Below, one piece after another: positions 2,802 through 35,082 of a DNA stretch of 64,000 nucleotides. Location: positions 1 through 64,000 of the forward strand of contig CABYFG010000002.1 in NCBI GenBank assembly GCA_902518185.1, in the 5' to 3' direction. The translations under genes were made by a program, and so were the position numbers. Numbering within the stretch: position 1 is the stretch's first letter; each line of letters starts with the position of its first letter. The notes under the pieces are model-generated. The model worked only from the letters and a program-made list of their open reading frames with translations. It had not been told where the DNA came from and ran no database searches. The stretch comes from an uncultured Pelagibacteraceae bacterium (GTDB taxonomy: Bacteria > Pseudomonadota > Alphaproteobacteria > Pelagibacterales > Pelagibacteraceae).

Positions 2802-2804
2802 AAA

Positions 2805-6380: not shown

Positions 6381-6385
6381 TTAAC

Positions 6386-6976: not shown

Positions 6977-7065
6977 ATATTTTAAATGGTATACATACAT
7001 AATCCTACTATATCAATATTAGTATGAACACTTGAAGTATCAAAAATAATTACCATTTATTGAGT

Positions 7066-7581
7066 ATGACAACAATTGTACTAGTCAGAAAAAATAATGA
7101 AGTTGTAGTTGCTGGTGACGGTCAAGTAAGCATGGGAAATACTGTAGTAAAAAGCACTGCTTCAAAAGTGAGAAAAATTGAGAAAAGAGATGTAGTTGCT
7201 GGTTTTGCAGGATCTACTGCTGATGCTTTAACTTTATTTGAGAGATTAGAGGGAAAATTAGAAAAACATGCGGGAAACCTTTCGAGAGCTGCTGTTGAAT
7301 TGGCAAAAGATTGGCGAACAGATAAATATTTAAGAAGATTAGAAGCGTTAATGGCTGTTGGAGATAAAAGTAATAGTTATATTATTTCTGGAACAGGAGA
7401 TGTTTTGGAACCAGAGGGTGATGTAATTGGAATAGGATCAGGTGGAAACTATGCCTTAGCGGCGGGAAAGGTTTTAATGGAAGGCAATATGTCTGCTGAG
7501 GAAATTGCAAAAAAAGCAATTAAAATTGCCGCAGATATATGTGTTTTTACAAATGATAATGTTAAAGTTGAAAAAATATAA
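7066..7581 (+). CDS. hslV: ATP-dependent protease peptidase subunit HslV
   Basis: Threonine protease chamber of the HslUV (ClpQY) complex. I start it at the ATG at 7066, not at a TTG two codons earlier, because removal of this Met exposes the catalytic Thr (MTTIVLVRK). The 171-residue protein keeps the HslV signature [13 protein letters not shown] and the [12 protein letters not shown] loop. The stop and the hslU start overlap by one base (TAATG), so subunits are coupled in translation. Confidence 0.97.
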
Positions 7582-8954
7582 TGGATAATTCAAACGTCAC
7601 AAAATTACACCTAAAAGATAAGAATCAAAAAGAAGAAGCTTCCTTAGTAAGCTCGTTATCTCCTAGAGAAATAGTTTCTGAGCTTGATAGATTCGTTGTA
7701 GGTCAAAATAAAGCTAAAAGAGCTGTTGCAGTGGCATTGAGAAATAGATGGAGAAGACAGGCCTTAAAAGGAGAAATGAAAAATGAAGTTTTGCCGAAAA
7801 ATATTTTAATGATTGGTCCAACAGGTGTAGGAAAAACAGAAATTTCTAGAAGATTGTCAAAGCTCGCTGAAGCACCATTTGTTAAAGTAGAAGCTACCAG
7901 GTTTACAGAGGTTGGATATGTAGGACGAGATGTAGAGCAAATTGTTCGAGATTTAATAGAAATAGCAATTTCTATGGAGAAAGTAAAAAAAAGAAAAGAA
8001 GTTTTTGCTAAGGCTCAAAAGCTAGCTGAAGAAAAAGTTTTAGATGCTCTTGTTGGTAAAAAAGCAAGTCTTGCAACAAGAGAAAGTTTCAGAAAAAGGC
8101 TCCGAAATGGTGATCTAGACGATAATGAAATTGAAATTGCTGTTAGCGATACTGGAAATAATAGTACTTCATTTGAAATTCCAGGAATGCCTGGTGCAAA
8201 TGTAGGTATGATAAACATTGGTGAGATGCTTGGAAAATCAATGGGTGTTAAAGAAAAAAAGAAAAAAATGACAGTGAAAGAGTCGCATGAAATATTAATT
8301 AATGATGAGTCTGATAAATTAATTGAACAAGATAAAATTATAAAAGCAGCAAAAGTTTCAACAGAAAATAACGGGATAGTTTTTCTAGATGAGATAGATA
8401 AAATTTCCGGTAGAACTGATAGAGTTGGTGGGGATGTATCAAGAGAGGGTGTGCAAAGAGATTTATTGCCTTTAATTGAGGGTACTACAGTGAATACGAA
8501 ATACGGACCAATTAAAACTGATCATATCTTATTTATTGCATCCGGGGCTTTCCAACTTGCAAAACCATCAGACCTGCTTCCTGAACTCCAAGGAAGACTT
8601 CCAATAAGAGTTGAGTTAGAAGCCTTGACAAGTAAAGATTTTAAAAAAATTCTTAAAGAGCCAGATTTTAGTTTGATCAAACAATATGTTGCTTTATTGA
8701 AGACTGAAAATGTTGATTTAGAGTTTTCAGATGACGGTATTAATGCAATTGCTAACATCGCTTCTGAAGTAAATTCAACAGTTGAAAACATAGGTGCAAG
8801 AAGACTTCACACTATCATAGAAAAAATTTTAGATGAGATAAGTTTTACTGCGACTGATAGAGCTGGTGAAAGAATAATTATAAATAAAGATTATATTGAC
8901 AAAAACCTTGACAATTTAGTTAAAGATACTGATTTATCTAAATTTATTCTCTAA
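7581..8954 (+). CDS. hslU: ATP-dependent protease ATPase subunit HslU
   Basis: AAA+ unfoldase that feeds substrates to HslV. The 457-residue protein has Walker [10 protein letters not shown] at 79-87, the pore-loop region around [15 protein letters not shown] at about 111-125, an inserted I-domain (about 125-250), and Walker [10 protein letters not shown] at about 265-272. The C-terminal tail DLSKFIL matches the tail that docks between HslV subunits in E. coli. Its 3' end overlaps the converging smr gene by 11 bases. Confidence 0.98.
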
Positions 8955-9366
8955 TTTTATTTTTTTTCAAAAAAATATAAAAAGAACCTTCTCCACCATC
9001 TTTAATCCCAGCGTTTTCGATTTTATTTATCAATTTGATTAAATCTTTATTGTTATTGATATACTCCGGGATAGAGTATTTCAAAATCCCAAAGTTTTTT
9101 GAAACATAAGGATTTTTTTCATTGTTTGAGTGAATACCTTTACCTGTAATAACTATAATTTTATTTACTTTTTCTGAATAGCATTTATTTATAAATTCCT
9201 CTATTACTCTATTAGCATTATCTAATGTATAACCATGTAAATCAATAGTCTTTGTTCTTAAAATTTCTTTACGTGTTGATTGAAGATCTTTGTTAGGTAA
9301 TTTTTCTGATCCAGATGTAAAGTTTTCCCAATCTTTTTTATCTTTGTCTGAGATATCGTAAATCAA
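8944..9366 (-). CDS. Smr-domain protein
   Basis: A 140-residue protein with a C-terminal Smr (small MutS-related) domain. The signature [11 protein letters not shown] is at about 41-51 and the second motif ITGKGIHS at about 92-99. Smr domains act as endonucleases on branched DNA or on RNA; which applies here is unknown. The N-terminal 35 residues are polar and probably disordered. It converges on hslU with an 11-base overlap and follows the Tim44-domain gene directly; smr, tim44, fxsA, secB and hslUV are commonly clustered in alphaproteobacteria. Confidence 0.85.
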
Positions 9367-9963
9367 TTAGGTTAAAATATTTACAAGCTGCCAATTAGGA
9401 TTAGGTGATGTAGTATCTCTTGAAAAAACCCAAGTATCATAGATTTTCTTAATCTTTTCAGGATCTCCAGAAACAATTTTTTTTTCTTTATCTCTAATAC
9501 AAGTAATCACCTCAGCAATAAAATCTACTGTTACATTAAGTATATTCCCAATTTTTTTATGCTCTTTAATATTTGCAGAATTTAGTCCTATAAATGTAAT
9601 TTCAGCGTAGTGGCCTCTATTGCTTCTTTCTTTTAGAGCTTGATTGAATTGGTCGAAAACTTTCTTGCTTAAAAGAGGCTTACTGTTAGTCAACTTATTA
9701 TCATCATCACTAAAATCTGTGACGATAGTCTCATAGGCTATCTTGGCGCCATTAAGAAATTCTTTTTTTGCAGTTTCATCAAAGTTTTCAGTTTTTTTAA
9801 AACTTTTTTCTCTTTGGACATTTTTTATTATTTCTTGAAATTGCGCAGGCGCTTTACCCTCAAAACCTGTTTTTTTTCCCAAAATGCCTCTTAATCTTAA
9901 AAAGATAAAACCAGCAATCATTGCTAATAATATGATATCTATATATTCGAAACTGTAATTCAT
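9367..9963 (-). CDS. Tim44-like domain membrane protein
   Basis: A 198-residue inner-membrane protein with one N-terminal membrane segment (about residues 7-24, YIDIILLAMIAGFIFLRL), a charged linker, and a C-terminal domain related to mitochondrial Tim44. The alpha/beta cone-like Tim44 core is seen in KEFLNGAKIAYETIVTDFSD, the ITFIGLNSANIKE strand and VTVDFIAEVI. The bacterial relatives (TimA) associate with membranes, but their role is not established. It is one base from smr. The assignment rests on layout and on its place next to fxsA/secB. Confidence 0.8.
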   Translation of the reverse strand: MNYSFEYIDIILLAMIAGFIFLRLRGILGKKTGFEGKAPAQFQEIIKNVQREKSFKKTENFDETAKKEFLNGAKIAYETIVTDFSDDDNKLTNSKPLLSKKVFDQFNQALKERSNRGHYAEITFIGLNSANIKEHKKIGNILNVTVDFIAEVITCIRDKEKKIVSGDPEKIKKIYDTWVFSRDTTSPNPNWQLVNILT

Positions 9964-10020
9964 CTACTAATAGTAATTACTATGTTGATTAATTTCAACC
10001 AACAATTACATTAAAGACAA

Positions 10021-10446
10021 ATGAACACACTATTATTATCTATTATTCTAGTTCCAGTAGTTGAAATTTATCTGTTTATAAAAATTGGAGCTAAAATTGG
10101 TGCATTCAACACTATCCTCTTGGTCTTTATTACAGCTTTTACAGGAATTTTTTATGCCAGATATGAAGGTTTAAATACATTAAAATCTGGTTTCTCTCAA
10201 ATGATTAAAAATCAAGTGCCAGCCTACGAAATGCTTTCCGGTGCAGCAATTGCTTTTGGAGCTTTACTTCTTATTATACCTGGTTTTGCTACTGACGTCC
10301 TAGGATTTTTAATCATATTTCCAATTACTAGAAAATTAATTTTTGGAAAAGTCTCAACAAAATTAAAAGATAAAAAAAAAATAAAAGAGGATTACATAGA
10401 AGGTGAGTTTGAAGATATAGAAAGTGATGATGAAAGAAAATTTTGA
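10021..10446 (+). CDS. fxsA: FxsA-family membrane protein
   Basis: A 141-residue polytopic protein of the FxsA family (named from suppression of F-plasmid exclusion of phage T7; cell role unclear). It has three hydrophobic stretches at about 4-22, 27-46 and 74-100, with the family motifs PVVEIYLFIKIGAKIG near the N-terminus, GIFYARYEGL at about 42-51 and LLIIPGFATDVLG at about 81-93. The C-terminal tail is acidic. The secB start lies inside its last codons, so the two are coupled. Confidence 0.92.
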   Translation: MNTLLLSIILVPVVEIYLFIKIGAKIGAFNTILLVFITAFTGIFYARYEGLNTLKSGFSQMIKNQVPAYEMLSGAAIAFGALLLIIPGFATDVLGFLIIFPITRKLIFGKVSTKLKDKKKIKEDYIEGEFEDIESDDERKF

Positions 10447-10852
10447 AATTCTTGCAAAATTTATAAAAGATGCATCAAGTGAAACTGCAGATGTGGAAAC
10501 CTATTTATTTGTTAAAGACAATATATCTAAATATTTACTTAATATAGATATAAACTCTAGAGTGCTTAAAAATAAACTCATTGAAATAAATACTACCTTA
10601 AAATTTGAGGATAAAGAACCTAATGAGAAAAAATCTTACTACGAAATTATATATACAACTGTAATAAAGGTTAATAAAAAAATTAAAGAAAAAAAAGAAC
10701 TAGAAAAAATAATTTTATGTGATGTACCAACAAAAATTTATCCAGAATTAGAAAGGTCCTTTATGAATTTGCTTAATAACTCCGGACACCCTGATATAAG
10801 ATTTGAAAAAAAAGTAGATTTTTATAAATTATATAACGATAGAATCACTTAA
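10427..10852 (+). CDS. secB: protein-export chaperone SecB
   Basis: Tetrameric export chaperone that keeps precursors unfolded and hands them to SecA. The 141-residue product is divergent, but shows the SecB plan: the first strand AKFIKDASSETAD (E. coli has KDISFEAP at this place), a strand-rich middle with conserved acid-rich turns, and the helix KIYPELERSFMNLLNNSGHPDIRFEKKVDFYKLY, written here only by its ends (KIYPELERSF, DFYKLY), matching the family's FPYARE... and V-N-F-D-x-L blocks. Three consecutive start codons GTG ATG ATG occur at 10424-10432; I take the first ATG. Position between fxsA and dnaQ is the canonical one. Confidence 0.8.
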   Translation: MMKENFEILAKFIKDASSETADVETYLFVKDNISKYLLNIDINSRVLKNKLIEINTTLKFEDKEPNEKKSYYEIIYTTVIKVNKKIKEKKELEKIILCDVPTKIYPELERSFMNLLNNSGHPDIRFEKKVDFYKLYNDRIT

Positions 10853-11513
10853 ATAAATTTTTTTTAAGATTATTTTTTAAATAAATTTTGTGATTATCTA
10901 ATTCCTCTTGAGTAATATCAACTATCTTTTTACAATAAACACTCTTTTCATTATAATTTGTTTTTCTAAATTTTAGATCTTGGTTTTGAAAATTTAAAGT
11001 TGGTTCTTTCTGATCAATCAAATTAATGTAAACCTTAGACAATAAATCACAATCAATTAATGCAGTATGTAATTTTCTTTTGGAATTATCAATTCTATAT
11101 CTCTTACATAGAGCATCTAGGCTAGATGAAGATCCAGGAAACTTATTTCTTGCAAGGATTAAGGTATCAACAATTTCATTATTAATAATATCTCTACCTA
11201 GAATTTTAAGCTCATTATTTAAGTGAGATAAATCAAATTCTGCATTATGGATTATCAATTTTTTACCATTTATGAAATTTAAAAATTCATCAACTACATC
11301 GACAAACTTTTTTTGGGTTGATAAAAAATCATCAGAATAACCATGTATCTCAAATGCTTTTTCTGAAACTTTCCTCTCTGGATTTAAATAATAATGAAAA
11401 TAATTTTTGGTTGGAATTAGATTTTCTAATTCAATACAGCCTATTTCTACAATTCTATGACCCTCTTTTACTGAAATACCCGTTGTTTCTGTATCTAGTA
11501 CGATTTCTTTCAT
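10845..11513 (-). CDS. dnaQ: DNA polymerase III epsilon subunit (3'-5' proofreading exonuclease)
   Basis: Proofreading exonuclease of the replicative polymerase. The 222-residue protein has DEDD-family motifs: Exo I LDTETTG (D7, E9), Exo II around HNAEFDLSHLNNEL, and Exo III HTALIDCDLLSKVY with the catalytic His and Asp. The C-terminal third is lysine/asparagine-rich and shows no clear clamp-binding pentapeptide by eye. It converges on secB (8-base overlap) and overlaps coaE by 4 bases in a tight dnaQ-coaE-aroE-maf-ppsR minus-strand array (transcribed from ppsR towards dnaQ). Confidence 0.95.
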   Translation of the reverse strand: MKEIVLDTETTGISVKEGHRIVEIGCIELENLIPTKNYFHYYLNPERKVSEKAFEIHGYSDDFLSTQKKFVDVVDEFLNFINGKKLIIHNAEFDLSHLNNELKILGRDIINNEIVDTLILARNKFPGSSSSLDALCKRYRIDNSKRKLHTALIDCDLLSKVYINLIDQKEPTLNFQNQDLKFRKTNYNEKSVYCKKIVDITQEELDNHKIYLKNNLKKNLFK

Positions 11514-12079
11514 ATCAAGTTTTTTAAAATTTCTTTCACCCTAATTTTAACAGAATTTTTCTTAAAATTGTTTTTTATTATAAACTGAGATCTTTTTTTT
11601 TTTAAATCGTGCGATAGTTGAATTTTTTTAAAATTATTTAATAATTTCATATTAAAATTTTTTCTTTTTTTTAGTCTTTTTAAGACTTCTGATTTTCTAG
11701 ACTCTACGAAAATTAATATATCTTTTTTTTTATTAATTTTATTCTCTAGTAATAATGGCACATCTAAAACTACAATTTTTTTATGTTTATTTCTTTTTAG
11801 AAAATTGTGCATTTTTTTTCTAACTTCACAATGAACGATTTCTACAATTTTTTTTAAATTTCTTTTATTTGCTAATATTGCATCTATAATCTCTTCTTTT
11901 TTTATAGGGAAAGTATCAAAATAAAACGGAAGTTTGCTCTTCAATTTTTTAAAAACTTTTCTGTTATTTTTATAAATTTTTGCAACTTCTAAATCAGCAT
12001 TAAATACAGGGAAACCAAAACACTTAGCCACGTATGTTTTACCAGCACCTATATCTCCTATGATCCCTATTCTCTTCAT
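11510..12079 (-). CDS. coaE: dephospho-CoA kinase
   Basis: Last step of coenzyme A synthesis (dephospho-CoA plus ATP). The 189-residue protein opens with a P-loop GDIGAGKT at 8-15, followed by the CoaE signature FPVFNADLEVAKIY at about 27-40 and the LDVPLLLENK strand near 105-114. The lid and C-terminus are unusually lysine/asparagine-rich (RKSEVLKRLKKRKNFN), in keeping with the AT-rich genome. 4-base overlaps at both ends tie it to aroE and dnaQ. Confidence 0.95.
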   Translation of the reverse strand: MKRIGIIGDIGAGKTYVAKCFGFPVFNADLEVAKIYKNNRKVFKKLKSKLPFYFDTFPIKKEEIIDAILANKRNLKKIVEIVHCEVRKKMHNFLKRNKHKKIVVLDVPLLLENKINKKKDILIFVESRKSEVLKRLKKRKNFNMKLLNNFKKIQLSHDLKKKRSQFIIKNNFKKNSVKIRVKEILKNLI

Positions 12080-12870
12080 TTATCTAAAAATTTTTTTAAA
12101 TCTTCTGTAACTGCTGGTTTTATATTATGCCATAATTTAAACGCTTCGAAGGCTTGGTAAATAAACATCATCTTGCCATTAGAAACTTGACAGCCTAACC
12201 TTTTTCCAGTGCGTAAAAAATTAGTTTCTTTTGGATTGTAAATAACATCATAAAAAAACTTTTCTTTGCTTATATTATTTAGATCTAAACCTATTTTGTC
12301 ACCTTTGCTTAGCCCCAAACTAGTAGCATTAATAATCATATCGAATTCTGGTAGCTCTCCCCAATCAACTATACTTATTTTTGAAAAATTCTTTTTTAAA
12401 TTTTCAGCTTTTTGCTTTGTTCTATTGCTCACTATTATTTTGGAAACACCCAGTTTTTGTAATGAATAGATTATTGATGGTACCACACCCCCAGCTCCCA
12501 AAATAAATATTACTTTATTTTTTAAATTAAATTGAATTTCCTTTAAACTTAACTCAAAACCCTTTATGTCAGTATTATGGCCTACTAATTTTTTATTCCG
12601 CATATATATTGTGTTTACAGACTTAGTAACCTGAGACTCCTCACTCAGTTTATCTAAAAAAGGAATTACATCACTTTTGAAAGGAACAGTAATATTTACT
12701 CCATTTAATTTATTCTCTTTAATTTCTGAGATAACCTCTTGGATTTCATTTTTGTTTATTTGTCTTCTATCATAATTTGCATCAATATTATTTTTTTCAA
12801 ACCAATAATTGTGTAGTTTGGGTGAAAGAGAATGTTTGATTGGATTCCCGATTACTAGATATTTTTTCAT
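12076..12870 (-). CDS. aroE: shikimate dehydrogenase
   Basis: NADPH-dependent reduction of 3-dehydroshikimate in the shikimate pathway. The 264-residue protein has the substrate-binding motif GNPIKHSLSPKLHN at about 8-21, catalytic lysine region NITVPFKSDV near 60-69 followed by NTIY, the catalytic Asp in GHNTDIKGF near 100, and the NADP-binding turn LGAGGVVPS near 125. It is a full-length AroE type rather than YdiB. Overlaps maf and coaE by 4 bases each. Confidence 0.96.
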   Translation of the reverse strand: MKKYLVIGNPIKHSLSPKLHNYWFEKNNIDANYDRRQINKNEIQEVISEIKENKLNGVNITVPFKSDVIPFLDKLSEESQVTKSVNTIYMRNKKLVGHNTDIKGFELSLKEIQFNLKNKVIFILGAGGVVPSIIYSLQKLGVSKIIVSNRTKQKAENLKKNFSKISIVDWGELPEFDMIINATSLGLSKGDKIGLDLNNISKEKFFYDVIYNPKETNFLRTGKRLGCQVSNGKMMFIYQAFEAFKLWHNIKPAVTEDLKKFLDK

Positions 12871-13451
12871 TTATAATTATTCAAATATTTTTTAATTTTT
12901 TCAACTGGAAGTCCCATTATTGTATTTTCGTTTCCATCAATACTTGAAAAAAGTTTTCTTCCTTCCCCTTCAATTTGATAAACATTATAAGCATATAACA
13001 CTTCATCCGGAATTTTTTCCAAATATTTTATTAACTCATCATCTTTCATTTTTTTCATAGTCAACAATGCTTTATCAGTGTAATTCCACACCATAAATCC
13101 GTTTTTAGATATACAAACCGAACTAATCAAATAATGTTTTTTACCATTGAGCTTCTTTAAAATTTCTAAGGCTTCATTTCGATTATTGGGTTTTGATATA
13201 AGTTCTCCTTCTAGATCAATAACACTGTCTGCACCCAAAACTAGATTGTCATTAAAAGATTGACTTACTTTGTTAGCTTTTAATTCAGCTAAATTTCTTG
13301 ATATAATTTCTGGTGAAACTTTTTCTTTAAGTAAACTTAACTTTACAACATCTTCATCAACATTTGATGGTTTTACTTCATTTAAAATATTATATTTATC
13401 GAGAATCTTTTTTCTAACTTTACTTTTAGAAGCCAAAATAATCTTAGGCAT
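12867..13451 (-). CDS. maf: Maf-family nucleoside triphosphate pyrophosphatase
   Basis: House-cleaning nucleotide pyrophosphatase of the Maf/HAM1 superfamily that hydrolyses non-canonical or methylated NTPs to NMPs. The 194-residue protein starts with the Maf signature ILASKSKVRKKIL (residues 4-16). It keeps the catalytic block VLGADSVIDLEG near 67-78 and KPNNRNEALEILKKLNGKKH, seen as KPNNRNEA. It overlaps ppsR by 8 bases and aroE by 4. Which Maf subgroup (dTTP/UTP or m7GTP) is not clear by eye. Confidence 0.94.
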   Translation of the reverse strand: MPKIILASKSKVRKKILDKYNILNEVKPSNVDEDVVKLSLLKEKVSPEIISRNLAELKANKVSQSFNDNLVLGADSVIDLEGELISKPNNRNEALEILKKLNGKKHYLISSVCISKNGFMVWNYTDKALLTMKKMKDDELIKYLEKIPDEVLYAYNVYQIEGEGRKLFSSIDGNENTIMGLPVEKIKKYLNNYK

Positions 13452-14268
13452 TGTCTTTATAAATCTCGTATATTTTAATTACTGAAGCTGCGGTTTCTTC
13501 TACAGATTTTCTTGTTACATCAATAGACGGCCATTTATATTTTTTAAAAGTGTCTCTTGCCATGTTCACTTCCTTTCTTATTTCCTCTAGATCTGTATAT
13601 GATTTATTATTATTTTCCTTAAGAGAGTTCATTCTATTTTTCCTAATTTCTACCAGCCTATCTGGCTCAGTATTTAATCCAATTATACATGAGATTTTAG
13701 GATTTTCCTTTAATGCCTCCGGTAAAGAGTTTTCGTTTATTAAAGGTATGTTAGAAGTTTTAAAACCTTTGTTAGCTAAAAAAATGGCTGTTGGAGTTTT
13801 GCTTGTTCTGCTTACTCCTAAGAGGATTATATCAGAATCTTTTATTTCTTTTACGAGATTTCCATCGTCATGGTTCATTGTAAATTGAATAGCCTCTATT
13901 CTTTTATAATAATCTTCGTCAAGAGCATATTGCCCGCTTGGTTGATGTGAAGCTTTTTGATTCAAAAGTTTTGAGAAACTTAGTATTAATTCACCCAAAA
14001 CTCCAAAACATGGAATTTTTTTTATATCACTTTTTTTTGCAAGGTATTTGGCTAAGTTACTATCAACAATTGAGTATAATATTATAGAGTTTTTTTGTTT
14101 TTCTGCATTTTCTAGAATTCTTAAAATCTGGTTTTCTGTTCTCGTAAAAGAGTAGGTGTGTACTTTGTAATTAATGTTTTTAAATTGAGCTTTGATAGCT
14201 ATAAAAATACGGTCTAGAGTTTCACCGGTTGCATCTGATATAAGATAAATTTGGTATAAATTACTCAT
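13444..14268 (-). CDS. ppsR: PEP synthase regulatory protein / bifunctional kinase-pyrophosphorylase (DUF299)
   Basis: Member of the PPSR/PDRP family, which reversibly phosphorylates a threonine of PEP synthase or pyruvate phosphate dikinase. The 274-residue protein shows the family hallmarks: N-terminal YLISDATGETLDR at 8-20, the P-loop GVSRTSKT at 151-158, and the C-terminal WPSIDVTRKSVEETA block. It is the first gene of the minus-strand dnaQ group and lies next to hemE across the candidate origin; this is the 'RP001 homologue' position of Rickettsia and Caulobacter origin maps. The target kinase/synthase gene is not in the window. Confidence 0.92.
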   Translation of the reverse strand: MSNLYQIYLISDATGETLDRIFIAIKAQFKNINYKVHTYSFTRTENQILRILENAEKQKNSIILYSIVDSNLAKYLAKKSDIKKIPCFGVLGELILSFSKLLNQKASHQPSGQYALDEDYYKRIEAIQFTMNHDDGNLVKEIKDSDIILLGVSRTSKTPTAIFLANKGFKTSNIPLINENSLPEALKENPKISCIIGLNTEPDRLVEIRKNRMNSLKENNNKSYTDLEEIRKEVNMARDTFKKYKWPSIDVTRKSVEETAASVIKIYEIYKDNA

Positions 14269-14550
14269 GTATAATATGTGTATATATTTGTACTATTTTT
14301 ATCATATTAAATATTTTTCATATTTTAAAAATTATGTTGTAAAACAATGCTTTTATTAACAAAATTAAACATGTTAAAATCTCCAGTAATCGTTTGGTGT
14401 ATTTAGTTAATAAGCTTCAATTTTGCGTATTTATTTATTAAAATTTAAATTCTAAATGTTAACAAACTGTTTATAAAATGTTTAATAAATTTAATCACCA
14501 TTATTCGCAGATTATACTAATATTACAATTAATTATATTTAACTATTAAC
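14269..14550. other. candidate chromosomal replication origin (oriC), ppsR-hemE intergenic region
   Basis: A 282-base, extremely AT-rich gap between divergent ppsR and hemE. In Caulobacter and Rickettsia the origin lies at hemE next to this same gene family. Three 9-mers differ by one base from the DnaA-box consensus TTATNCACA: TTATTAACA at 14353-14361, TTATAAACA (minus strand) at 14468-14476 and TTATTCGCA at 14501-14509. Several short ATGTTWAA-like words recur (14371, 14456, 14479). The genes read outward on both sides and a parS site lies 9 kb away. In DNA this AT-rich near-matches arise by chance, so synteny is the stronger argument. No CtrA or IHF site is convincing. The hemE promoter must also lie here. 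Confidence 0.6.
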
Positions 14551-15552
14551 ATGTCTCCAATCGAAGAAGTAATAGTAAACAAAAAAAGTGATATTAAACC
14601 TATTTGGATAATGAGACAGGCTGGGAGATATTTACCAGAATTTAGAGAGATAAGAAAACAAAATCCTGATTTTATTAAATTATGTCTTAATCAAAAATTA
14701 TCAAGCGAGATAACTTTACAACCCTTAAAAAGATTCAATTTAGATGCTGCAATAATTTTTTCTGATATTTTAATGTTACCATATGGTTTAAATCAAGTTG
14801 TTGAATTTAAAAAAAATGTAGGTCCATTACTTGGTAACTTAGATTTAAAAGAAATTTCGAATATTGAAGAAGTTAAATTTATAAAAAAACTGTCTCCTGT
14901 TTATGAATTAATTAAAATAGTAAGTAACTCCCAATTTACCAAAAATAAAACTACTATAGGCTTTGTTGGGGCACCGTGGACTTTATTAGTTTACATGATT
15001 AATAAAAAATCACCAAAATTAAACCTTAATGAAAATTTTTTTGAAGACAAATATTTAATTGATAAAGTTCTTAAAATCTTAGATAAATTTTTAAAAATTC
15101 ACATTAAAAACCAGATTGATAATGGTGCCCAGATAATTCAAATTTTTGATAGTTGGGCCGGTCTATTAAAAGAAAAAGATTTACCCCACTACATTTATGA
15201 TCCTACTTTAAGCTTGGTTAATTACACGAAATCTTTAAATGTGCCTGTTATCTGCTTTCCAAGAGGTATTAGAAATTACAAAGATTATTGTGAAATTATC
15301 AAACCAGACACAATCTGCATTGATTATGAGGTTGATCCGGTAAAGATTAATAAAGAGATAAAAATTCCTGTTCAAGGTGGAATGGACCCGAAGGTTTTGC
15401 TTTCTAATAAGGAAATTTTAAAAAAAGAAACAATGAAATATTTAAATATATTTAAAGATCATCCATATATATTTAATTTAGGGCATGGCGTTCTTCCAGA
15501 AACGGACCCCAATATGATGGATTATTTAGTAAAAACTGTGAAAGATTATTAA
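14551..15552 (+). CDS. hemE: uroporphyrinogen decarboxylase
   Basis: Converts uroporphyrinogen III to coproporphyrinogen III in heme synthesis. The 333-residue TIM-barrel protein has the signature PIWIMRQAGRYLPEF near residues 12-26 with the substrate-binding arginines, AAIIFSDILMLPYGL at about 65-79 with the catalytic Asp, and GFVGAPWTLLVYMI near 138-151. It is followed at once by hemH (1-base TAATG overlap) and hemJ, so the window carries three late heme steps in a row. It marks the right edge of the candidate origin. Confidence 0.98.
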   Translation: MSPIEEVIVNKKSDIKPIWIMRQAGRYLPEFREIRKQNPDFIKLCLNQKLSSEITLQPLKRFNLDAAIIFSDILMLPYGLNQVVEFKKNVGPLLGNLDLKEISNIEEVKFIKKLSPVYELIKIVSNSQFTKNKTTIGFVGAPWTLLVYMINKKSPKLNLNENFFEDKYLIDKVLKILDKFLKIHIKNQIDNGAQIIQIFDSWAGLLKEKDLPHYIYDPTLSLVNYTKSLNVPVICFPRGIRNYKDYCEIIKPDTICIDYEVDPVKINKEIKIPVQGGMDPKVLLSNKEILKKETMKYLNIFKDHPYIFNLGHGVLPETDPNMMDYLVKTVKDY

Positions 15553-16550
15553 TGGAAAAAAAAACAATACACCCATTAGTTAATTTCGGAAAGACAGGAG
15601 TTTTAATTGTTAACCTTGGAACTCCTGACTCAACAAGTTGGTTTGATATAAGAAAATATTTAAAAGAATTTTTATCAGACAGAAGAGTAATCGAAGTTAA
15701 CCCGATAATTTGGCAAATCATATTAAATGTTATTATATTAACATTTCGGCCATCAAAGACGGCCAAGGCTTATAAAGAAATTTGGATGAAAGACAAAAAC
15801 ATTTCTCCTCTTTTGCATTATACGCAAAGGCAAGCGGAAAAGCTTTCAAACTTAATATCTGAAAAAAACTTAATAGTAGATTATGCTATGAGATATGGAA
15901 ATCCTAGCATAAAAAGTAGAATTGTAAATCTTCATGAAATGGGTTGTGAAAGTTTAATAATTCTCCCACTTTATCCTCAATATGCTGCGGCAACCACTGC
16001 AACAGTCTGTGATGAAGTATATAGAACTCTTATGAAAATGAGATGGCAACCATCATTAAAAATAGTGCCACATTATGAGTCGGATCCCTTATATATAGAA
16101 GCGCTCGTGAATTCATTGAATAAAAAAATAAAAGAAATAAATTGGAAACCAGATTTGATATTAGCTTCTTATCATGGAATACCTCAAAAATATTTTGATA
16201 AAGGCGATCCTTATCATTGCTATTGTCACAAGACCACGAGACTAATATCAGAAAAGCTTACTTCAATTGAAATTAAGACAACATTCCAATCTAGATTTGG
16301 TCCTGAGAAATGGCTTCAACCCTACACAGACAAAACTTTAGAAAATTTACCCAAAGAAGGTAAAAAGAATGTTTTGGCCATATGTCCAGGATTTTCCTCA
16401 GACTGCGTCGAAACTTTAGAAGAAATCCAAATCCAAGGGAAAGAGAGTTTTTTAGAGTCCGGTGGAGAAAACTTTGATATGGTGCCATGTCTGAATGATA
16501 ATGACGATCACATAAATTTATTAAAATCTCTAATTCAAAAAAACATTTGA
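15552..16550 (+). CDS. hemH: ferrochelatase
   Basis: Inserts Fe(II) into protoporphyrin IX, the final step of heme b synthesis. The 332-residue protein shows VLIVNLGTPDS near 17-27, FLSDRRVIEVNPIIWQ, the metal-binding His in ASYHGIPQKYF near 205-215 with the following CYCHKTTRL, and the signature CPGFSSDCVETLEEI near 276-290. The coupled hemE-hemH-hemJ order fits a single heme transcript. Ends 3 bases before hemJ. Confidence 0.97.
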   Translation: MEKKTIHPLVNFGKTGVLIVNLGTPDSTSWFDIRKYLKEFLSDRRVIEVNPIIWQIILNVIILTFRPSKTAKAYKEIWMKDKNISPLLHYTQRQAEKLSNLISEKNLIVDYAMRYGNPSIKSRIVNLHEMGCESLIILPLYPQYAAATTATVCDEVYRTLMKMRWQPSLKIVPHYESDPLYIEALVNSLNKKIKEINWKPDLILASYHGIPQKYFDKGDPYHCYCHKTTRLISEKLTSIEIKTTFQSRFGPEKWLQPYTDKTLENLPKEGKKNVLAICPGFSSDCVETLEEIQIQGKESFLESGGENFDMVPCLNDNDDHINLLKSLIQKNI

Positions 16551-16553
16551 TCA

Positions 16554-16988
16554 ATGAACACTTACTTACTTTTTAAATCGTTACATTTGATATCTGTCAT
16601 TTCTTGGATGGCTGGATTGTTATATCTTCCAAGGATTTTCGTTTATCATTCTCAAAACAATACTCAGCCAATTATATCAGATGTGTTTAAGGTTATGGAA
16701 AGAAAATTATTTTTTTATATCATGACACCAGCAATGATATTATCTTGGCTATTTGGCTTGCTACTTATCCACGAAATAGGATTTGAAAAACTTGGACAAA
16801 TTTGGATGATTTTGAAATTGATATTTGTGGTTATATTAACAATTTATCATTTTTATCTTGGTCGTATTTTAGGACAGTTTAAATTAGACCTTAATACACA
16901 TTCACATAAATTTTATAGATTTATAAATGAAATACCCACATTATTGCTCATTTTAATCATTTTTGTTGTGATTTTTAAACCTATCTAG
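16554..16988 (+). CDS. hemJ: protoporphyrinogen IX oxidase HemJ
   Basis: Membrane protoporphyrinogen oxidase of the HemJ (formerly UPF0093/CopD-like) family, the common form in alphaproteobacteria lacking HemG and HemY. The 144-residue protein has four membrane segments and the conserved features KSLHLISVISWMAGLLYLPR, seen at the N-terminus as KSLHLISVISW with the heme-ligand-type His, and the FYRFINEIPTLLL end. Its place after hemE-hemH supports the function: it makes the substrate of HemH. Confidence 0.93.
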   Translation: MNTYLLFKSLHLISVISWMAGLLYLPRIFVYHSQNNTQPIISDVFKVMERKLFFYIMTPAMILSWLFGLLLIHEIGFEKLGQIWMILKLIFVVILTIYHFYLGRILGQFKLDLNTHSHKFYRFINEIPTLLLILIIFVVIFKPI

Positions 16989-16990
16989 GG

Positions 16991-17044
16991 TTGCATATTT
17001 ACAAATTGTATATATATTTAAATTATTATTAAGTCCTTAATAAT
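16991..17044 (+). promoter_or_regulatory. possible rho promoter with a 20-base palindrome
   Basis: In the 63-base hemJ-rho gap a TTGCAT (16991-16996) is followed after 16 bases by TATATT (17013-17018), a plausible sigma70-type promoter. Just downstream lies a perfect inverted repeat ATTATTAAG-TC-CTTAATAAT (17025-17044) ending eight bases before the rho start. It would be near the transcription start, either as an operator or as part of a short leader. The promoter call is weak because the region is almost all A and T; the palindrome itself is exact. Confidence 0.4.
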
Positions 17045-17051
17045 TCTAATC

Positions 17052-18320
17052 ATGAACATACAAGAACTAAAACTAAAATCATCCGAACAACTTATTACTC
17101 AAGCAGAGGAGCTTGGTATAGAAAACGCAAGTACATTAAGAAAGCAGGAAATTCTCTTTGCAATTCTTAAAAAGGTCGCTGAAAAAGAAGAAATTACAGG
17201 GGCTGGCGTTTTGCAACTGCTTCAAGATGGATTTGGTTTTTTAAGAGCAATGGAATCAAACTATCTTCCTGGTCCTGATGATATTTACGTAAGTCCAAGT
17301 CAAATAAGGAAATTTGGTTTGAGAACAGGAGATACCGTTGAAGGCCCTGTTAGAGCCCCGAAAGAAGGTGAAAGATATTTTGCATTATTACAAGTTAGTA
17401 AAATAAATTTTGAAGAACCTGATAAATCTAGACACAAAATAGCATTTGATAACTTGACCCCTTTATATCCAGATAAACAACTAGTTATGGAAGTCGAGGC
17501 AACAAAACCAGATAAAAAACAGGATTTAACACCAAGGTTAATAGATCTTGTTAGTCCGATTGGAAAGGGACAAAGATCAATTATTATTTCACCTCCTAAA
17601 GCAGGAAAGACAATGATTTTACAAAGCATCGCAAATTCAATAGCAAAAAATTATCCAGAGTGTTATTTAATTGTGTTGCTAATAGATGAGCGACCAGAAG
17701 AGGTCACAGATATGCAAAGGACTGTGAAGGGCGAGGTTATTAGCTCAACTTTTGATGAACCAGCACAACGACATGTAGCTGTTGCTGAAATGGTTATAGA
17801 AAAAGCAAAAAGATTGACTGAACATAAGAAAGATGTGGTTATACTTCTTGACTCAATAACAAGATTAGGAAGGGCATATAATGCTGTTATACCAAGCTCA
17901 GGAAAGGTTTTAACGGGTGGTGTCGATGCAAATGCATTACAGAGACCAAAAAGATTCTTTGGTGCTGCTAGAAATATCGAGGAGGGTGGATCTTTAACTA
18001 TAATCTCTACTGCTTTAATAGATACAGGAAGCAGAATGGACGAGGTTATATTCGAGGAATTTAAGGGAACTGGTAATAGTGAAACTGTCCTTGATAGAAA
18101 AATCGCTGATAAAAGAATCTATCCCGCTATAGATATCACAAAATCCGGAACAAGGAGAGAAGAGTTGTTGTTTGATAAAAATGATCTTCAAAAAATGAAT
18201 GTTTTAAGGAGAATAATTGCACCAATGGGAACTATGGATGCTATAGAATTTATTAATTCAAAACTAAAAGATACAAAAAACAACTCTGAGTTTTTTAATT
18301 CAATGAACAAACCTGCTTAG
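17052..18320 (+). CDS. rho: transcription termination factor Rho
   Basis: Hexameric RNA translocase that ends transcription. The 422-residue protein has the N-terminal helical Rho_N domain (about 1-45), the OSN/cold-shock RNA-binding fold (about 50-120, with [18 protein letters not shown] in its usual form: [19 protein letters not shown]), Walker A PPKAGKT at about 181-187, Walker [13 protein letters not shown] near 260, and the Q/R-loop region [20 protein letters not shown] as [12 protein letters not shown]. Length is that of standard Rho, without large insertions. rho next to hemJ and mnmE is the usual alphaproteobacterial origin cluster. Confidence 0.98.
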
Positions 18321-30457: not shown

Positions 30458-31477
30458 ATGAAAAAACTAACAAAAATTGGTGTATCAGCTCTAGCTGGTT
30501 CACTAGTTGCTGCATCTGCACAAGCGGGTGAGTTAAGCGCAAGTGGTACTTGGGAACTTACTTACAAGTCAGATGACAAAGCAAACGTTGGTAACCCTTT
30601 TGGATCTAAATCAGCTGTAACACTTAGTGGTTCAGGTGATGTTGACGGTTTAGGAACTGCATCATTTTTAGCAGTAATAAATGACAACAGTCCAGCAGGT
30701 TACGCGTCACATGAAATCTCATTAGATATGGGAGACATGGGTACATTTGGTTTTGACCAAGGTGTAGGTACATATGGTGCTAGCACAATCGATGATAAAT
30801 CACCGACTGCTTGGGAAGAGTCATGGCACAATACTGCTAACTCATCAGGTGGATTAGTTCACTCTGGTGGTTCAACGGGTGTATTAGGTTATTCAAATTC
30901 AGTAGGTGGATTTGATGTATCAGTAGAGTACGCTCCAGCATTAACATCAAACGACAACGGAGACGGTGCTGCAGGTGGTGATACTACATTAGCAAACGGA
31001 TCAAATATTAACTTTGCTATCAATAACAGCTCGTTAATTGATGGTTTAGTATTTGGTGTGGGTGCTGGTGATTCTGAGTACGACAACAGTGTAATCGTTG
31101 GTGCTGAGGATGGATCATCTGTAGTTGGTTATGCAAACTATACGTTTGGATCAATTACTGCTGGTATAACTTTATCAGAGTCAAATAATGTCAGAACCGC
31201 TGCAACTGGTGCTAACGAAGGTGGTAGAGAAGTTGAAGCTTACGGTATCGCAATGGCTGTAAATGACAGTTTATCAATTTCTTATAATGAACATAATATG
31301 ACTTATAAGAAAAATGGTTCAAATGCTGATGTCGAGCAAGAGTCAACTGGTATTGCATTGTCTTACACTATGGGTGGAGCTACTTTAGCAATCCAAAACA
31401 ACTCGCAAGATAACACTGGCGGAACAGCTGGAAGCAACGACGAGATTACTGAAATTAGTTTATCATTAGCATTCTAA
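30458..31477 (+). CDS. outer-membrane porin
   Basis: A 339-residue beta-barrel porin. A cleavable signal peptide is clear (MKKLTKIGVSALAGSLVAAS, cleavage after AQA at about residue 23). The mature part is built of alternating amphipathic strands rich in Gly, Ser, Asn and Asp, and ends with the outer-membrane C-terminal Phe signature (SLSLAF). The FGFDQGVGTYGA segment resembles the constriction loop strand of alphaproteobacterial porins. Codon use and composition differ from neighbours (more G/C at third positions, few Lys), as expected of an abundant protein. Strong Shine-Dalgarno before and intrinsic terminator after show a single-gene transcript. Solute specificity is unknown. Confidence 0.9.
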   Translation: MKKLTKIGVSALAGSLVAASAQAGELSASGTWELTYKSDDKANVGNPFGSKSAVTLSGSGDVDGLGTASFLAVINDNSPAGYASHEISLDMGDMGTFGFDQGVGTYGASTIDDKSPTAWEESWHNTANSSGGLVHSGGSTGVLGYSNSVGGFDVSVEYAPALTSNDNGDGAAGGDTTLANGSNINFAINNSSLIDGLVFGVGAGDSEYDNSVIVGAEDGSSVVGYANYTFGSITAGITLSESNNVRTAATGANEGGREVEAYGIAMAVNDSLSISYNEHNMTYKKNGSNADVEQESTGIALSYTMGGATLAIQNNSQDNTGGTAGSNDEITEISLSLAF

Positions 31478-31498: not shown

Positions 31499-31529
31499 AA
31501 ACGGCCCTTTTATAGGGCCGTTTTTTTTT
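31499..31529 (+). terminator. intrinsic terminator of the porin gene
   Basis: Perfect 9-bp GC-rich stem AAACGGCCC / GGGCCGTTT (31499-31507 and 31515-31523) with a 7-base loop, followed by a continuous T run to 31529. It starts 21 bases after the porin stop. One of the clearest intrinsic terminators in the window. Confidence 0.95.
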
Positions 31530-31562: not shown

Positions 31563-33029
31563 ATGGGCTTAAACAATGAAAACTTTCAAGCTAAAATAGA
31601 TGAAGCTTTAACAAGTTTCAAAAAAGCAAATTATGAAAAATCAATTCAAAAATTAAAAAATTTAGAGCAAAGTAAAAAACATTTTCTAATAAATTGGTAT
31701 CTTGGACACTCATATTTTAGATTAAATGATTATCAATCAGCAATTGAAAATATAGAAAAATCAATAAAACTTAAAAAGCCTGACAAATTGAACTTAAGTT
31801 TTTTAGCTGAAATTTTTTTACGAACAAATAATTATAAAGATTCTATAAGATTATTCAAACGAGTTTTAAAATTTGATAAAAATAACCTAAATTCACTATT
31901 TAATCTTGCCCGTGCACACTTAGATATTGGTGATCTAGATGTAGCAGAAAGATATTACAATTACATAATAAAGAATGATAGTTCGAACTTCGAGGCTTGG
32001 TATGAAATTATAAGATTGAATAAAAAATATTTGACAGATGATCTTGTTAAAAAAATTGAAAAAAAAGAAAATTCATTAAACAAAAAGGACCATAATTATA
32101 TTTTTGCAAAATTAATTCTTGCTGAAAAAAATAAGATAGAAAAAGACTATCGGACAGAGCTAATTAACCTTTTGGAAGCTCATAAAAATTTCTATAAATC
32201 AAAAGAAAAAGTAGCCAATCAAGAATTTAATTATTTTACTAATTTGTTACCTAAATTTATATCAAATATTAAAAAGACCAATGTTAAGATAAATTGTGAT
32301 CTAGAACCTATTTTTGTTATGGGGCTACCAAGATCAGGAACTACTTTAGTTGAAAAGCTTATTTCATCTAATGAAGAGGTTAAACCGAGTGGTGAGACAG
32401 GAGTATTGAGCAAAGTTTTTTATGCGAAAAATATCATTAAAAATTATGAATCCAGTAATTTAATATCTAATTTTAATAATGAAAAAAAAGATTTTGAAAT
32501 TTTAAAAGATGCAATTTTGAAACAATATGAGCAATTAAATATTAATATTTCTCAAAAAAAAATTTCAGATAAATCTATAGAAAATTTACTTTATATAGAT
32601 TTGATAAAAATAATTTTTCCAAAAGCTAAGTTTATTTACTGTAAAAGAAATAAATATGCTAATTTTCTAGGAATATTGAAGGTTTTTTTACCAAATTTAT
32701 TATGGACGCATTCCACAGTTAAAATTATTCAAATGATGAATTTTTATGAAAATAAAATCAAACAATTAATAAATGAAAAAAAAATTCAAATTAAAATTAT
32801 TGAGTTGGAAGAACTTTCTAATGACCCAATCTCAGTTTCTAAAGATTTATATAATTTTTTAAATTTAAATTGGAATGAAAAGATTTTAGATAATTATAAT
32901 GATGATAAAAATTTTATAAAGACGGTGAGTAATTTACAAGTAAGAAAAAAAATCAGCAAACATGATTTAAAATATTTAGACAATTATCTTCCTTTGTTAA
33001 ATAATATAGGAATTAAAGATTTAATTTAA
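31563..33029 (+). CDS. TPR-sulfotransferase-like protein, copy 1 (degenerate PAPS site)
   Basis: A 488-residue protein with TPR repeats in the N-terminal half (about 10-165, e.g. INWYLGHSYFRLNDYQSAIE region) and a C-terminal sulfotransferase fold. The 5'-phosphosulfate loop is intact: GLPRSGTTLVEK at about 254-265. The 3'-phosphate-binding segment, RNPKDNCLS in the neighbour, reads RNKYANFLG at 362-370 here, so Pro, Asp and the PAPS-contacting Ser are lost. It may therefore not use PAPS in the normal way, or not be an active enzyme. It converges on copy 2 with a 9-base overlap. Acceptor is unknown. Confidence 0.8.
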   Translation: MGLNNENFQAKIDEALTSFKKANYEKSIQKLKNLEQSKKHFLINWYLGHSYFRLNDYQSAIENIEKSIKLKKPDKLNLSFLAEIFLRTNNYKDSIRLFKRVLKFDKNNLNSLFNLARAHLDIGDLDVAERYYNYIIKNDSSNFEAWYEIIRLNKKYLTDDLVKKIEKKENSLNKKDHNYIFAKLILAEKNKIEKDYRTELINLLEAHKNFYKSKEKVANQEFNYFTNLLPKFISNIKKTNVKINCDLEPIFVMGLPRSGTTLVEKLISSNEEVKPSGETGVLSKVFYAKNIIKNYESSNLISNFNNEKKDFEILKDAILKQYEQLNINISQKKISDKSIENLLYIDLIKIIFPKAKFIYCKRNKYANFLGILKVFLPNLLWTHSTVKIIQMMNFYENKIKQLINEKKIQIKIIELEELSNDPISVSKDLYNFLNLNWNEKILDNYNDDKNFIKTVSNLQVRKKISKHDLKYLDNYLPLLNNIGIKDLI

Positions 33030-34544
33030 TTTAGAGAAAAGATCATTTAATTTCTTTTCGTAAACTTTATACTTTTCAATTGATGTTTTATAAATAGGTT
33101 TATTAGCTTGATTAAAGCTTACAGTTTTAATCGGATTTTCACTTTTGTAATATTCTAAGCACCTTTCCTCCCAATTTAAATCACATTTTCTAATTAAATG
33201 TTTTATCTCTGCATTTGAGTTTAATACTAGATTTTCATATTTAATATTAATTAAATCATCCTTAAAAAAACTATTCCAATATTTCATAATATCTGAGTAT
33301 ATCAAATAATATTCAGCTAATTCTCTTTGGTCTGAGTTCCATCCCTCTGGAATATCAAACATATTTTCAAATATAGACAAACAATTATCCTTAGGGTTCC
33401 TCAAAATATGAATTATCTTTGCCTCTGGTAAAAAAATTTTTATAAATCCTACATACCAAAAATTAGTAAGTGTTTTATCTAATATAATATTATTTTTTAT
33501 ATTAAATGCTTTAAGGAAACTTTTATACTGTGATTCAAAATCAGATTTTAAAAAATCTATGAAACTTTCATAGCCTTTATTAATATTCTCATAAATTTTT
33601 TCAGATATAAAATTCGCTTCACTAATTGATGATACTTTTGAATGAGAAGATACAATTTTTTCAACAAGACTCGTGCCTGACCTAGGCATGCCTAATATAA
33701 ATATATGACCTTTCCCTTTACCGGATTGAATATATTTTTTGTAATCAATTTTAGAAAAAAATGATTTTATTTTGTTAGATAAAGATTTATGTATTTGAAT
33801 ATCATACTTAATTAATGCTCTTAGAGTTTGATTTGCTTTGATTAAATGAAATATTGATTTTTCAAAGTCATTAATATCTCTATAAACTTTGCTTAACCCA
33901 AATTGAAGATAAGCTCTTTGATTATTGGATAATTCTTTTTTTTCTAATTTATTTAGCATAACTTTTATATGTGGGTTGTCTTTTGTATATTTTTCAAGCA
34001 TAGTAAGTTTTTGATCAGCCATTGTAAACTTCTCATCAAGCTTAATTGCATCGTCTAAATATTTTTTGGCTTCTTTAATTTTATTTGTAGATCTATATAT
34101 ATTTGAGATATTGAAATTTATAATTGGTAAATTTTTATTTAATTTTAATGCTTTTTGGTAATAAAAAAGTGCATCTTTAAGATGATAAGTATCATTTTTT
34201 ATATTGCCCAGATTAACTAAAGCGTTTACATATTTTGGATTAATTTTTTTTGCCTTAAGAAGATATTCTTCTGCTTTAGAATAATCTTTTAGCATTTTAT
34301 ATGACAGTCCAAGATTATTTAATGCTGAAAAGTTTTTAGAATTTATTTTTAAGGCATTTTCAAAACAATCGATTGACTTTTTAATTTTAAATAGATTTTG
34401 AAAACTAAGACCTGTCAGATTCCATAAAAAATCATTATCATTTTTTTTAAGGATTACGATCGACTCATCTATAACTTGTTGAAATTGTTTATATTCATAT
34501 TTTTTAATAAGTATTGAAATTTTATGATTTAGATTTTTTAACAT
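33021..34544 (-). CDS. TPR-sulfotransferase, copy 2
   Basis: A 507-residue protein with about five TPR units (residues 35-205; e.g. ALNNLGLSYKMLKDYSKAEE, seen as ALNNLGLSYKML) and a C-terminal PAPS-dependent sulfotransferase domain. The phosphosulfate loop GMPRSGTSLVEKI is at about 284-296, and the 3'-phosphate motif RNPKDNCLS at 382-390 is complete. The domain pair resembles tyrosylprotein-sulfotransferase-like bacterial proteins whose targets are unknown. It overlaps the ThiE-like gene by 23 bases, so the two are co-transcribed, and converges on the degenerate copy 1. Confidence 0.85.
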   Translation of the reverse strand: MLKNLNHKISILIKKYEYKQFQQVIDESIVILKKNDNDFLWNLTGLSFQNLFKIKKSIDCFENALKINSKNFSALNNLGLSYKMLKDYSKAEEYLLKAKKINPKYVNALVNLGNIKNDTYHLKDALFYYQKALKLNKNLPIINFNISNIYRSTNKIKEAKKYLDDAIKLDEKFTMADQKLTMLEKYTKDNPHIKVMLNKLEKKELSNNQRAYLQFGLSKVYRDINDFEKSIFHLIKANQTLRALIKYDIQIHKSLSNKIKSFFSKIDYKKYIQSGKGKGHIFILGMPRSGTSLVEKIVSSHSKVSSISEANFISEKIYENINKGYESFIDFLKSDFESQYKSFLKAFNIKNNIILDKTLTNFWYVGFIKIFLPEAKIIHILRNPKDNCLSIFENMFDIPEGWNSDQRELAEYYLIYSDIMKYWNSFFKDDLINIKYENLVLNSNAEIKHLIRKCDLNWEERCLEYYKSENPIKTVSFNQANKPIYKTSIEKYKVYEKKLNDLFSKLN

Positions 34545-35082
34545 TTCTTTTGAAGTAACTTATACCAGCAAAACCTTGAACGTTAATTAATTTTAATTTA
34601 TTTATATTATTTTTATTAATACCCCCTAAAGCAATAAGAGGTTTTTTAGTAAATTTACTTAAATAATTGAATTTTGAAATATCTAAAAATTTTTTAGATT
34701 TATTTGTTTTAAATAATGGTGATAGAAAAACTTGAGAAACATTCTGTTTTTCTTTAATTCTAATTTCATCTACTGAATGTGCAGACCCAATAATTATAAA
34801 ATTTCGATAATTTTTAAACATTTGGTGATAAATTTTTTTGTTAAAAGAGGGAATATAAGCACCATCTAATCTAAGCTTGAAAGCAAGCTCGACATTATTT
34901 GATATAAAAAATTTGATATTTAGTTTCTTACACTCATTTTTAAAATTTATAAGTTTTTTTAAATTTATTTTAGATTGATAATTTCTATAAATTATACGCA
35001 CACTATCGTCATAACCTTTGATATTTCTTGTATTTAAATTATCAATAAAATGATAAATAAACGATAGGTCTTTATTATGCAT
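34522..35082 (-). CDS. ThiE/TenI-family thiamine phosphate synthase-like protein
   Basis: A 186-residue TIM-barrel protein of the ThiE/TenI family. The late family motifs are clear: IIGSAHSVDEI near 98-108, FLSPLFKTNKSKK near 118-130 and IALGGINKNN near 149-158, ending VQGFAGISYF. The usual ThiE motif HLGQ-x-D (pyrimidine and Mg contacts) reads GAYIPSFN instead, closer to TenI-like barrels such as the one fused to Nudix domains. So thiamine phosphate synthase is possible but not assured; it could be a TenI-type paralogue. The start codon is the complement half of an ATGCAT shared with yggS. Confidence 0.65.
   Translation of the reverse strand: MHNKDLSFIYHFIDNLNTRNIKGYDDSVRIIYRNYQSKINLKKLINFKNECKKLNIKFFISNNVELAFKLRLDGAYIPSFNKKIYHQMFKNYRNFIIIGSAHSVDEIRIKEKQNVSQVFLSPLFKTNKSKKFLDISKFNYLSKFTKKPLIALGGINKNNINKLKLINVQGFAGISYFKRNVKKSKS

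Follow-up and report, generated by a model that had tools for sequence, protein, structure and literature searches.

Among the described enzymes that come closest to the genes discussed here are the human tyrosylprotein sulfotransferases TPST1 and TPST2 (PDB 5wri, 3ap1, 3ap3). Excerpts of the literature describe them as anchored in the Golgi membrane, name Arg79, Glu100, Lys159 and Ser286 as the catalytic residues of TPST1 (PMC5562738), and call TPST2 a functional dimer (PMC6637879). A bacterial TPST-like enzyme is the tyrosylprotein sulfotransferase RaxST of Xanthomonas, for which the available portion of the RaxST paper gives motifs for the donor 3′-phosphoadenosine 5′-phosphosulfate (PAPS) and a Ser-118, places the gene with substrate and secretion genes, and calls the Ser of the 3′-phosphate motif invariant and essential across sulfotransferases (PMC6637879). 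In mouse estrogen sulfotransferase the 3′-phosphate is bound by Arg130 and Ser138, according to an excerpt of PMC4199319. Sulfotransferase-like genes have already been listed in SAR11 bacteria, where part of PMC2217521 names SAR11_0312 and SAR11_1215 of Ca. Pelagibacter ubique as (potential) sulfotransferases, one in a hypervariable region; their likeness to our genes is by annotation only. Here we describe two sulfotransferase genes with tetratricopeptide repeats (TPR), referred to as copy 1 and copy 2, from an uncultured Pelagibacteraceae bacterium. They lie in a window of 64,000 nucleotides, the whole stretch analyzed (assembly GCA_902518185.1, contig CABYFG010000002.1, positions 1 to 64,000). 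Literature searches on 'TPR sulfotransferase' and on Pelagibacterales with sulfotransferase gave no match to either search phrase.

Copy 1 (31563..33029, + strand, 488 aa) and copy 2 (33021..34544, − strand, 507 aa) run towards each other, with an overlap of 9 bp at their stop codons (33021..33029) within TTAATTTAA. Both proteins run from TPR repeats, with several TPR models over the Pfam cut-offs, to a Sulfotransfer_3 domain (PF13469; 79.9 bits in copy 1 and 112.5 bits in copy 2, curated cut-off 27), and an alignment of 447 columns gives 30% identity between them. A sequence-only reading of the window had proposed such a convergent pair with a shared domain layout, and the open reading frames and Pfam bear this out. 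The motif positions it gave were also exact: copy 1 has the 5′-phosphosulfate loop PRSGTT (residues 256-261; 32328..32345, +) and the 3′-phosphate motif RNKYANFLG (362-370; 32646..32672, +), and copy 2 has PRSGTS (287-292; 33669..33686, −) and RNPKDNCLS (382-390; 33375..33401, −), with the 5′-loop intact in both. Every PAPS residue checked is present in copy 2, which is one of the canonical TPR-sulfotransferases (Sulfotransfer_3 with TPR) of the same order. Copy 1 shares their domain order and 5′-loop but differs in a W-x-H signature after the 3′-motif, and in that motif it retains Arg362 while the Ser, kept in 54/54 canonical proteins, is Gly370. Since the invariant Ser is missing, we do not file copy 1 as a proven PAPS-dependent enzyme.

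The sequence-only reading had counted Pro, Asp and Ser together as lost PAPS-binding residues, and for Pro and Asp this does not hold. Five other genomes of the genus carry the pair, and in all six copy-1 proteins the Ser position is Gly and the Asp position Ala, whereas the six copy-2 proteins all have RNPxDNCLS. Pro and Asp are uninformative on PAPS binding because TPST1, with RDGRASVHS in the alignment, lacks both while having the Ser that copy 1 does not, and because some canonical members lack them as well (Pro in 48/54, Asp in 41/54). Pro is also kept in three of the six copy-1 orthologues, and we do not read the changes at Pro and Asp as a sign that PAPS binding has gone.

The hallmark that delimits the subfamily of copy 1 is W381-T-H383 (32703..32711, +), present in 50/50 members by definition. 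Relatives of copy 1 were drawn from 399 genomes of the same genus, of which 97 matched; the closest copy-1 orthologues are in G196 (55% identity), G188 (52%), G357 and G415 (both 45%) and G260 (44%). Among 104 distinct sulfotransferase domains, the 50 with W-x-H after the 3′-motif form one group with an SH-aLRT (Shimodaira-Hasegawa-like approximate likelihood ratio test) support of 99, in a quick tree built without the motif columns and with long branches for L020, L060 and L143; the remaining 54 we term canonical. An earlier tree of 99 domains, reduced from 144 by merging identical cores, agrees on this grouping, and five W-x-H proteins were added for the larger set (L125, L128, L130, L136 and L138; three with Ala and two with Ser at the Ser position). 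The 50 are a sample, as wider regions were read for 40 of the matched genomes, the five closest and some other loci, and further W-x-H genes are likely outside it, for example in G141, G143, G257, G362, G430 and G437. Forcing both copies from all six pair genomes into one clade made the tree 43.9 log units worse, with a p-value of 0.032 in the approximately unbiased (AU) test. On the tree, copy 1 falls within an old monophyletic W-x-H branch, whose genes stand mostly at another locus, and it did not arise by decay of a duplicated copy 2; a recent local duplication is rejected, and with it the idea that one copy of a pair lost its site. A literature search on pseudoenzymes among sulfotransferases gave no entry that seems to concern this.

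Of the 50 W-x-H proteins, 25 have Ala, 15 Gly and 10 Ser at the Ser position, the last including L020 of the sister family f2; Ser is thus absent in 40/50, compared with 0/54 in the canonical group, and the tree requires at least four changes between Ser and non-Ser. The change in copy 1 is therefore more than a chance event and not an isolated one, being fixed in six orthologues and common in the subfamily. That Ser was lost only to Ala or Gly over at least four changes argues that the site is still constrained.

Selection on copy 1 was measured as the pairwise ratio of nonsynonymous to synonymous substitution rates (dN/dS). In close pairs the ratio is low, at 0.127 (G196-G188) and 0.155 (G357-G415), similar to 0.226 and 0.133 for copy 2 and 0.129 and 0.162 for the neighbouring gene thiE, and the copy-1 orthologues are uninterrupted in the five other pair genomes. 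Two distant pairs gave 0.314 and 0.409 for copy 1, the highest or nearly the highest of six genes, at a dS near 1 that makes these values unreliable. The relaxed selection or frameshifts that the sequence-only reading had named as signs against its view are not seen in the close pairs and the five orthologues, and the distant pairs decide nothing. The view that copy 1 is decaying after a duplication of copy 2, for which the distant-pair values and the changes at Ser, Pro and Asp in the window copy could be cited, is extremely improbable and already largely refuted, given the low close-pair ratios, the uninterrupted orthologues, the different subfamily and the AU test against a joint clade.

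Despite the altered 3′-motif, the counterparts of the catalytic residues of TPST1 are kept. Arg257 in the 5′-loop aligns with TPST1 Arg79 and Glu278 (32394..32396, +) with Glu100, each conserved in 50/50 W-x-H proteins; Lys337 of the Asp336-Lys337 pair (32568..32573, +) aligns with Lys159, the column being Lys in 43 and Arg in 7, and that of Asp336 is Asp in 48 and Glu in 2. Arg, Glu and Lys were matched by alignment, whereas Ser456 (32928..32930, +; 50/50) lies outside the TPST1 alignment and is our proposed counterpart of Ser286. The 3′-motif Arg is likewise kept in 50/50. The canonical group has the matching Arg, Glu, Lys and, by the same proposed mapping, Ser in 54/54, and the 5′-loop Arg is retained in all 104 proteins read. 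What copy 1 has lost is a donor-binding residue only, and the catalytic-residue loss expected of pseudoenzymes is not found. Structure prediction, suggested in the sequence-only reading, was run for both copies with AlphaFold2 (mean pLDDT 91.4 for copy 1 and 93.2 for copy 2). The modelled sulfotransferase domain of copy 1 matches TPST1 best (Z 20.6 over 236 residues, 3.1 Å), followed among sulfotransferases by 4gox (Z 16.6), 4gbm (Z 16.3) and SULT7A1 (Z 13.0), and that of copy 2 also has a TPST as its best match (Z 23.6, 231 residues, 2.6 Å), so that both domains are predicted to be TPST-like. The likeness covers the sulfotransferase part, with the TPR arm of both copies outside it, and the Golgi anchoring of the TPSTs is a further difference from the copies here.

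With its catalytic residues kept, low close-pair dN/dS and confident TPST-like models, copy 1 is likelier to be an active enzyme with an altered 3′-pocket for the donor than a pseudoenzyme, and a sulfotransferase function is likely. The sequence-only reading is partly supported overall; its suggestion of a regulatory pseudoenzyme is weakened by the kept counterparts of the four named TPST residues. Our best explanation, which we hold with roughly even confidence, is that copy 1 belongs to an old, selectively maintained W-x-H branch that most likely still transfers sulfuryl groups with a changed 3′-pocket. From these data we infer how the protein would work. The N-terminal TPR arm would hold the acceptor, and the C-terminal TPST-like domain would bind an activated sulfate nucleotide through the intact 5′-phosphosulfate loop. 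Glu278 would act as the base, and Arg257, Lys337 and Ser456 would stabilize the transfer. Arg362 may hold the 3′-phosphate without the usual Ser, with Gly in its place, making donor binding looser or different without abolishing the chemistry. A natural branch that has mostly dropped a Ser described as invariant, yet kept its catalytic residues, opens the role of this Ser to direct testing.

Several points weigh against this explanation. If the Ser is invariant and essential, as the RaxST paper says, its loss could mean that PAPS is not bound; pairwise dN/dS is a gene average and says nothing specific on the active site; the distant-pair ratios are high, if unreliable; and CysD, apsK over its cut-off and ATP sulfurylase are absent or nearly absent from the genus. 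This last point comes from 121 relatives (73 of this genus and 48 of family f2). CysD and apsK over its cut-off were each found in 7/121 genomes, all in f2 and none of the 73 in the genus, and ATP sulfurylase in 3/121, one of them in the genus. ATP sulfurylase was absent in 14/14 chosen genomes, including the six pair genomes and one complete one-contig genome, and in the genome of the window (84% complete) neither CysD, nor either kind of ATP sulfurylase, nor an apsK over the cut-off was found. PMC5069961 describes Ca. Pelagibacter ubique as lacking cysDNCHIJ and sat and having aprBA, although its Table 3 lists cysC and cysQ. Many of these bacteria thus carry sulfotransferase genes without a recognizable ATP sulfurylase, which makes the source of the sulfate donor a real question, for copy 2 as much as for copy 1.

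It is possible, but unlikely, that copy 1 and the other Ser-less W-x-H proteins adaptively lost the Ser because they use another donor, either adenosine 5′-phosphosulfate (APS), which has no 3′-phosphate and which the genus could make through AprBA, or another nucleotide. The lost Ser is, together with Arg, the binder of the 3′-phosphate in mouse estrogen sulfotransferase, and AprA over the cut-off occurs in 91/121 relatives, including the genome of the window, alongside the scarcity of PAPS genes. However, the 3′-motif Arg is retained throughout the subfamily, and Ser-bearing canonical copies exist in the same genomes, so the absence of PAPS genes is no distinguishing mark of copy 1. By eye, AprA is as common in genus genomes without a W-x-H gene (52/59) as in those with one (11/14), and we rejected it as a companion of these genes. 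The specific version in which the 3′-phosphate became dispensable for the Ser-less branch, which after loss of the usual PAPS route would take its sulfuryl group from APS that AprBA makes from sulfite and AMP, we consider improbable.

An APS-kinase-like protein (PF01583) also speaks against another donor, as some match was found in 93/121 relatives, many of them short proteins. The genome of the window has two such hits, the better of which scores 129.8 bits against the NCBIfam subfamily PRK05541 'adenylyl-sulfate kinase' (cut-off 127) and 103.6 bits against apsK, below the cut-off of 138.7. Its gene belongs to a cluster reminiscent of phosphoramidate sugar modification, in which two other genes about 3-6 kb away are PEP-synthase-like and similar to a gamma-glutamyl-CDP-amidate hydrolase (109.5 bits, cut-off 250), respectively. 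With the apsK score below the cut-off and these phosphoramidate-type neighbours, we did not accept the hit as proof of PAPS synthesis, though it passes PRK05541. The same neighbours, and the lack of ATP sulfurylase of either kind in most genomes carrying these genes, would fit a family that moves another group from a PAPS-like nucleotide, neither copy being a sulfotransferase in practice. We find this very improbable, given that none of the PAPS residues checked is missing from copy 2, whose model is TPST-like, and that the kinase-like protein passes an adenylyl-sulfate kinase subfamily model. In f2, moreover, a canonical gene is present in 32/35 genomes that have CysD or a short kinase, versus 6/13 of the others, a comparison confounded by completeness, with G116 (apsK, no CysD, no canonical gene) counted among the 13.

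A cluster in L092 (G000:C7:12000-31999, 4359-17376) encodes PEP-synthase-like, gamma-glutamyl-CDP-amidate hydrolase-like (E 2e-31, below the cut-off) and APS-kinase-like proteins, with a pseudaminic acid cytidylyltransferase and two weak sulfotransferase-like proteins. We take it to resemble O-methyl phosphoramidate capsule clusters, presumably as in Campylobacter. Low-scoring kinase hits (26-34 bits) in f2 occur in exactly the 28/48 genomes with AprA over the cut-off and in 0/7 with CysD, and the f2 CysD genome G086 has a separate short PF01583 hit (43 bits) near ATP sulfurylase; in the genus, kinase and AprA are not visibly correlated by eye. Short APS-kinase-like genes adjoin a small HxGH nucleotidyltransferase gene in L094 (G073, 1490-2372) and L093 (G012, 781-1559), and it is possible that the two form an unrecognized PAPS-type module.

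The sequence-only reading had also offered copy 1 as a partner of copy 2, and a pseudoenzyme that binds copy 2 and regulates it, perhaps in a heterodimer, has to be weighed. In its favour, the two genes converge side by side with a 9-bp overlap in each of the six genomes, and mild co-occurrence adds weak support: W-x-H genes are present in 14 of the 73 genus genomes, canonical genes in 38 and both in 11, so that canonical genes occur in 11/14 genomes with W-x-H and 27/59 without (Fisher one-sided p 0.026, ignoring kinship and incompleteness; the co-occurrence lists were compiled by hand from per-genome tables). Neighbours were examined at 45 W-x-H loci, with the five added proteins outside this count, and a canonical gene lies within two genes in 13: the six pair loci and seven more (five in one clade, L123 and L143). 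Conversely, the other 32 have no canonical gene within two genes, although some of these loci are truncated where the contig or locus stops, and none was found in three of the 14 W-x-H genomes (60-76% complete). Gene order is generally conserved in this group, which makes adjacency weak evidence, and with the catalytic skeleton intact such a partnership seems quite unlikely.

The locus itself is well conserved. All six pair genomes share the order leuS - lipoprotein - porin - copy 1 / copy 2 - thiE - yggS; porin and thiE were named by Pfam and the others from our own reading of the sequences. In the window the porin gene (30458..31477, +; PF13609, 28.6 bits, cut-off 27) lies upstream of copy 1, and the thiE-like gene (34522..35082, −; PF02581) shares 23 bp with the start of copy 2. 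A terminator-like hairpin with a T-tail (31499..31523, +; one found, shuffles mean 0.6, sd 0.8) separates porin and copy 1, so simple read-through from one to the other is probably not to be expected and a single operon is unlikely. Between G357 and G415 (L099, L100), porin dS is 0.035 and that of its neighbours 0.32-0.95, which suggests recent recombination at porin. No RaxST-type substrate or secretion genes were recognizable among the immediate neighbours of the pair, though no search was aimed at them.

In six other genomes of the genus (loci L032, L035, L037, L046, L058 and L060) porin adjoins a lone canonical gene, followed by thiE if the contig extends that far, and W-x-H genes are absent from this site. 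Copy 2 represents the ordinary form and was probably the first of the two at the porin-thiE site; a W-x-H gene may have arrived beside it, convergently, in the ancestor of the six sampled pair genomes. The single gene at this site in L060 (G072, 1486-3039) keeps the Ser, has GET and DKSL motifs that are W-x-H-like, and groups beside the W-x-H branch on a long branch.

Elsewhere, W-x-H genes mostly have other neighbours. At 33/45 loci a LON-domain gene lies within two genes (one representative confirmed by Pfam), the opposite flank mostly being a pterin-dehydratase-like gene and purH, read from translations; one further locus at a contig edge has two of these neighbours. Five of the 45 stand between lpd-like and priA-like genes (our own reading), and six are the convergent pair. 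TPR proteins with a C-terminal conserved-Cys domain (NLNC-RH, YCFxCYK, GCSE) lie within two genes of 13/45 W-x-H genes, for example at L122 7353-8489, L115 6559-7968, L113 7523-8647, L116 7320-8402 and L134 2771-4087. Five were scanned and gave no consistent Pfam match beyond TPR (Enolase_C in L116 was barely over the cut-off) and no PDB match. The family is present in 65/399 genus genomes, G000 not among them, and was rejected as a partner of the pair, with none of the six pair genomes matched. A Sulfotransfer_1-family gene adjoins four W-x-H genes (L115 5564-6415, 85 bits; L116; L137; L145), making the locus look like a collecting place for sulfotransferase genes.

Outside this group, when genome contigs were scanned with copy 1, a single spirochaete locus matched, over residues 10-161, which belong to the TPR part. 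A scan of viral sequences (IMG/VR) gave 18 relatives, of which 15 of the 17 in L157-L173 could be read, L174 being left out of the motif reading and L157 having been translated in a wrong frame. None of these 15, several of them near-identical, has W-x-H, and the Ser position is Ser in 13, Gly in L163 and Ala in L168; the last two viral TPR-sulfotransferase relatives have thus lost the 3′-motif Ser although they have no W-x-H. The partly aligned L173 shows W-V-H in that column, its other motifs being unaligned.

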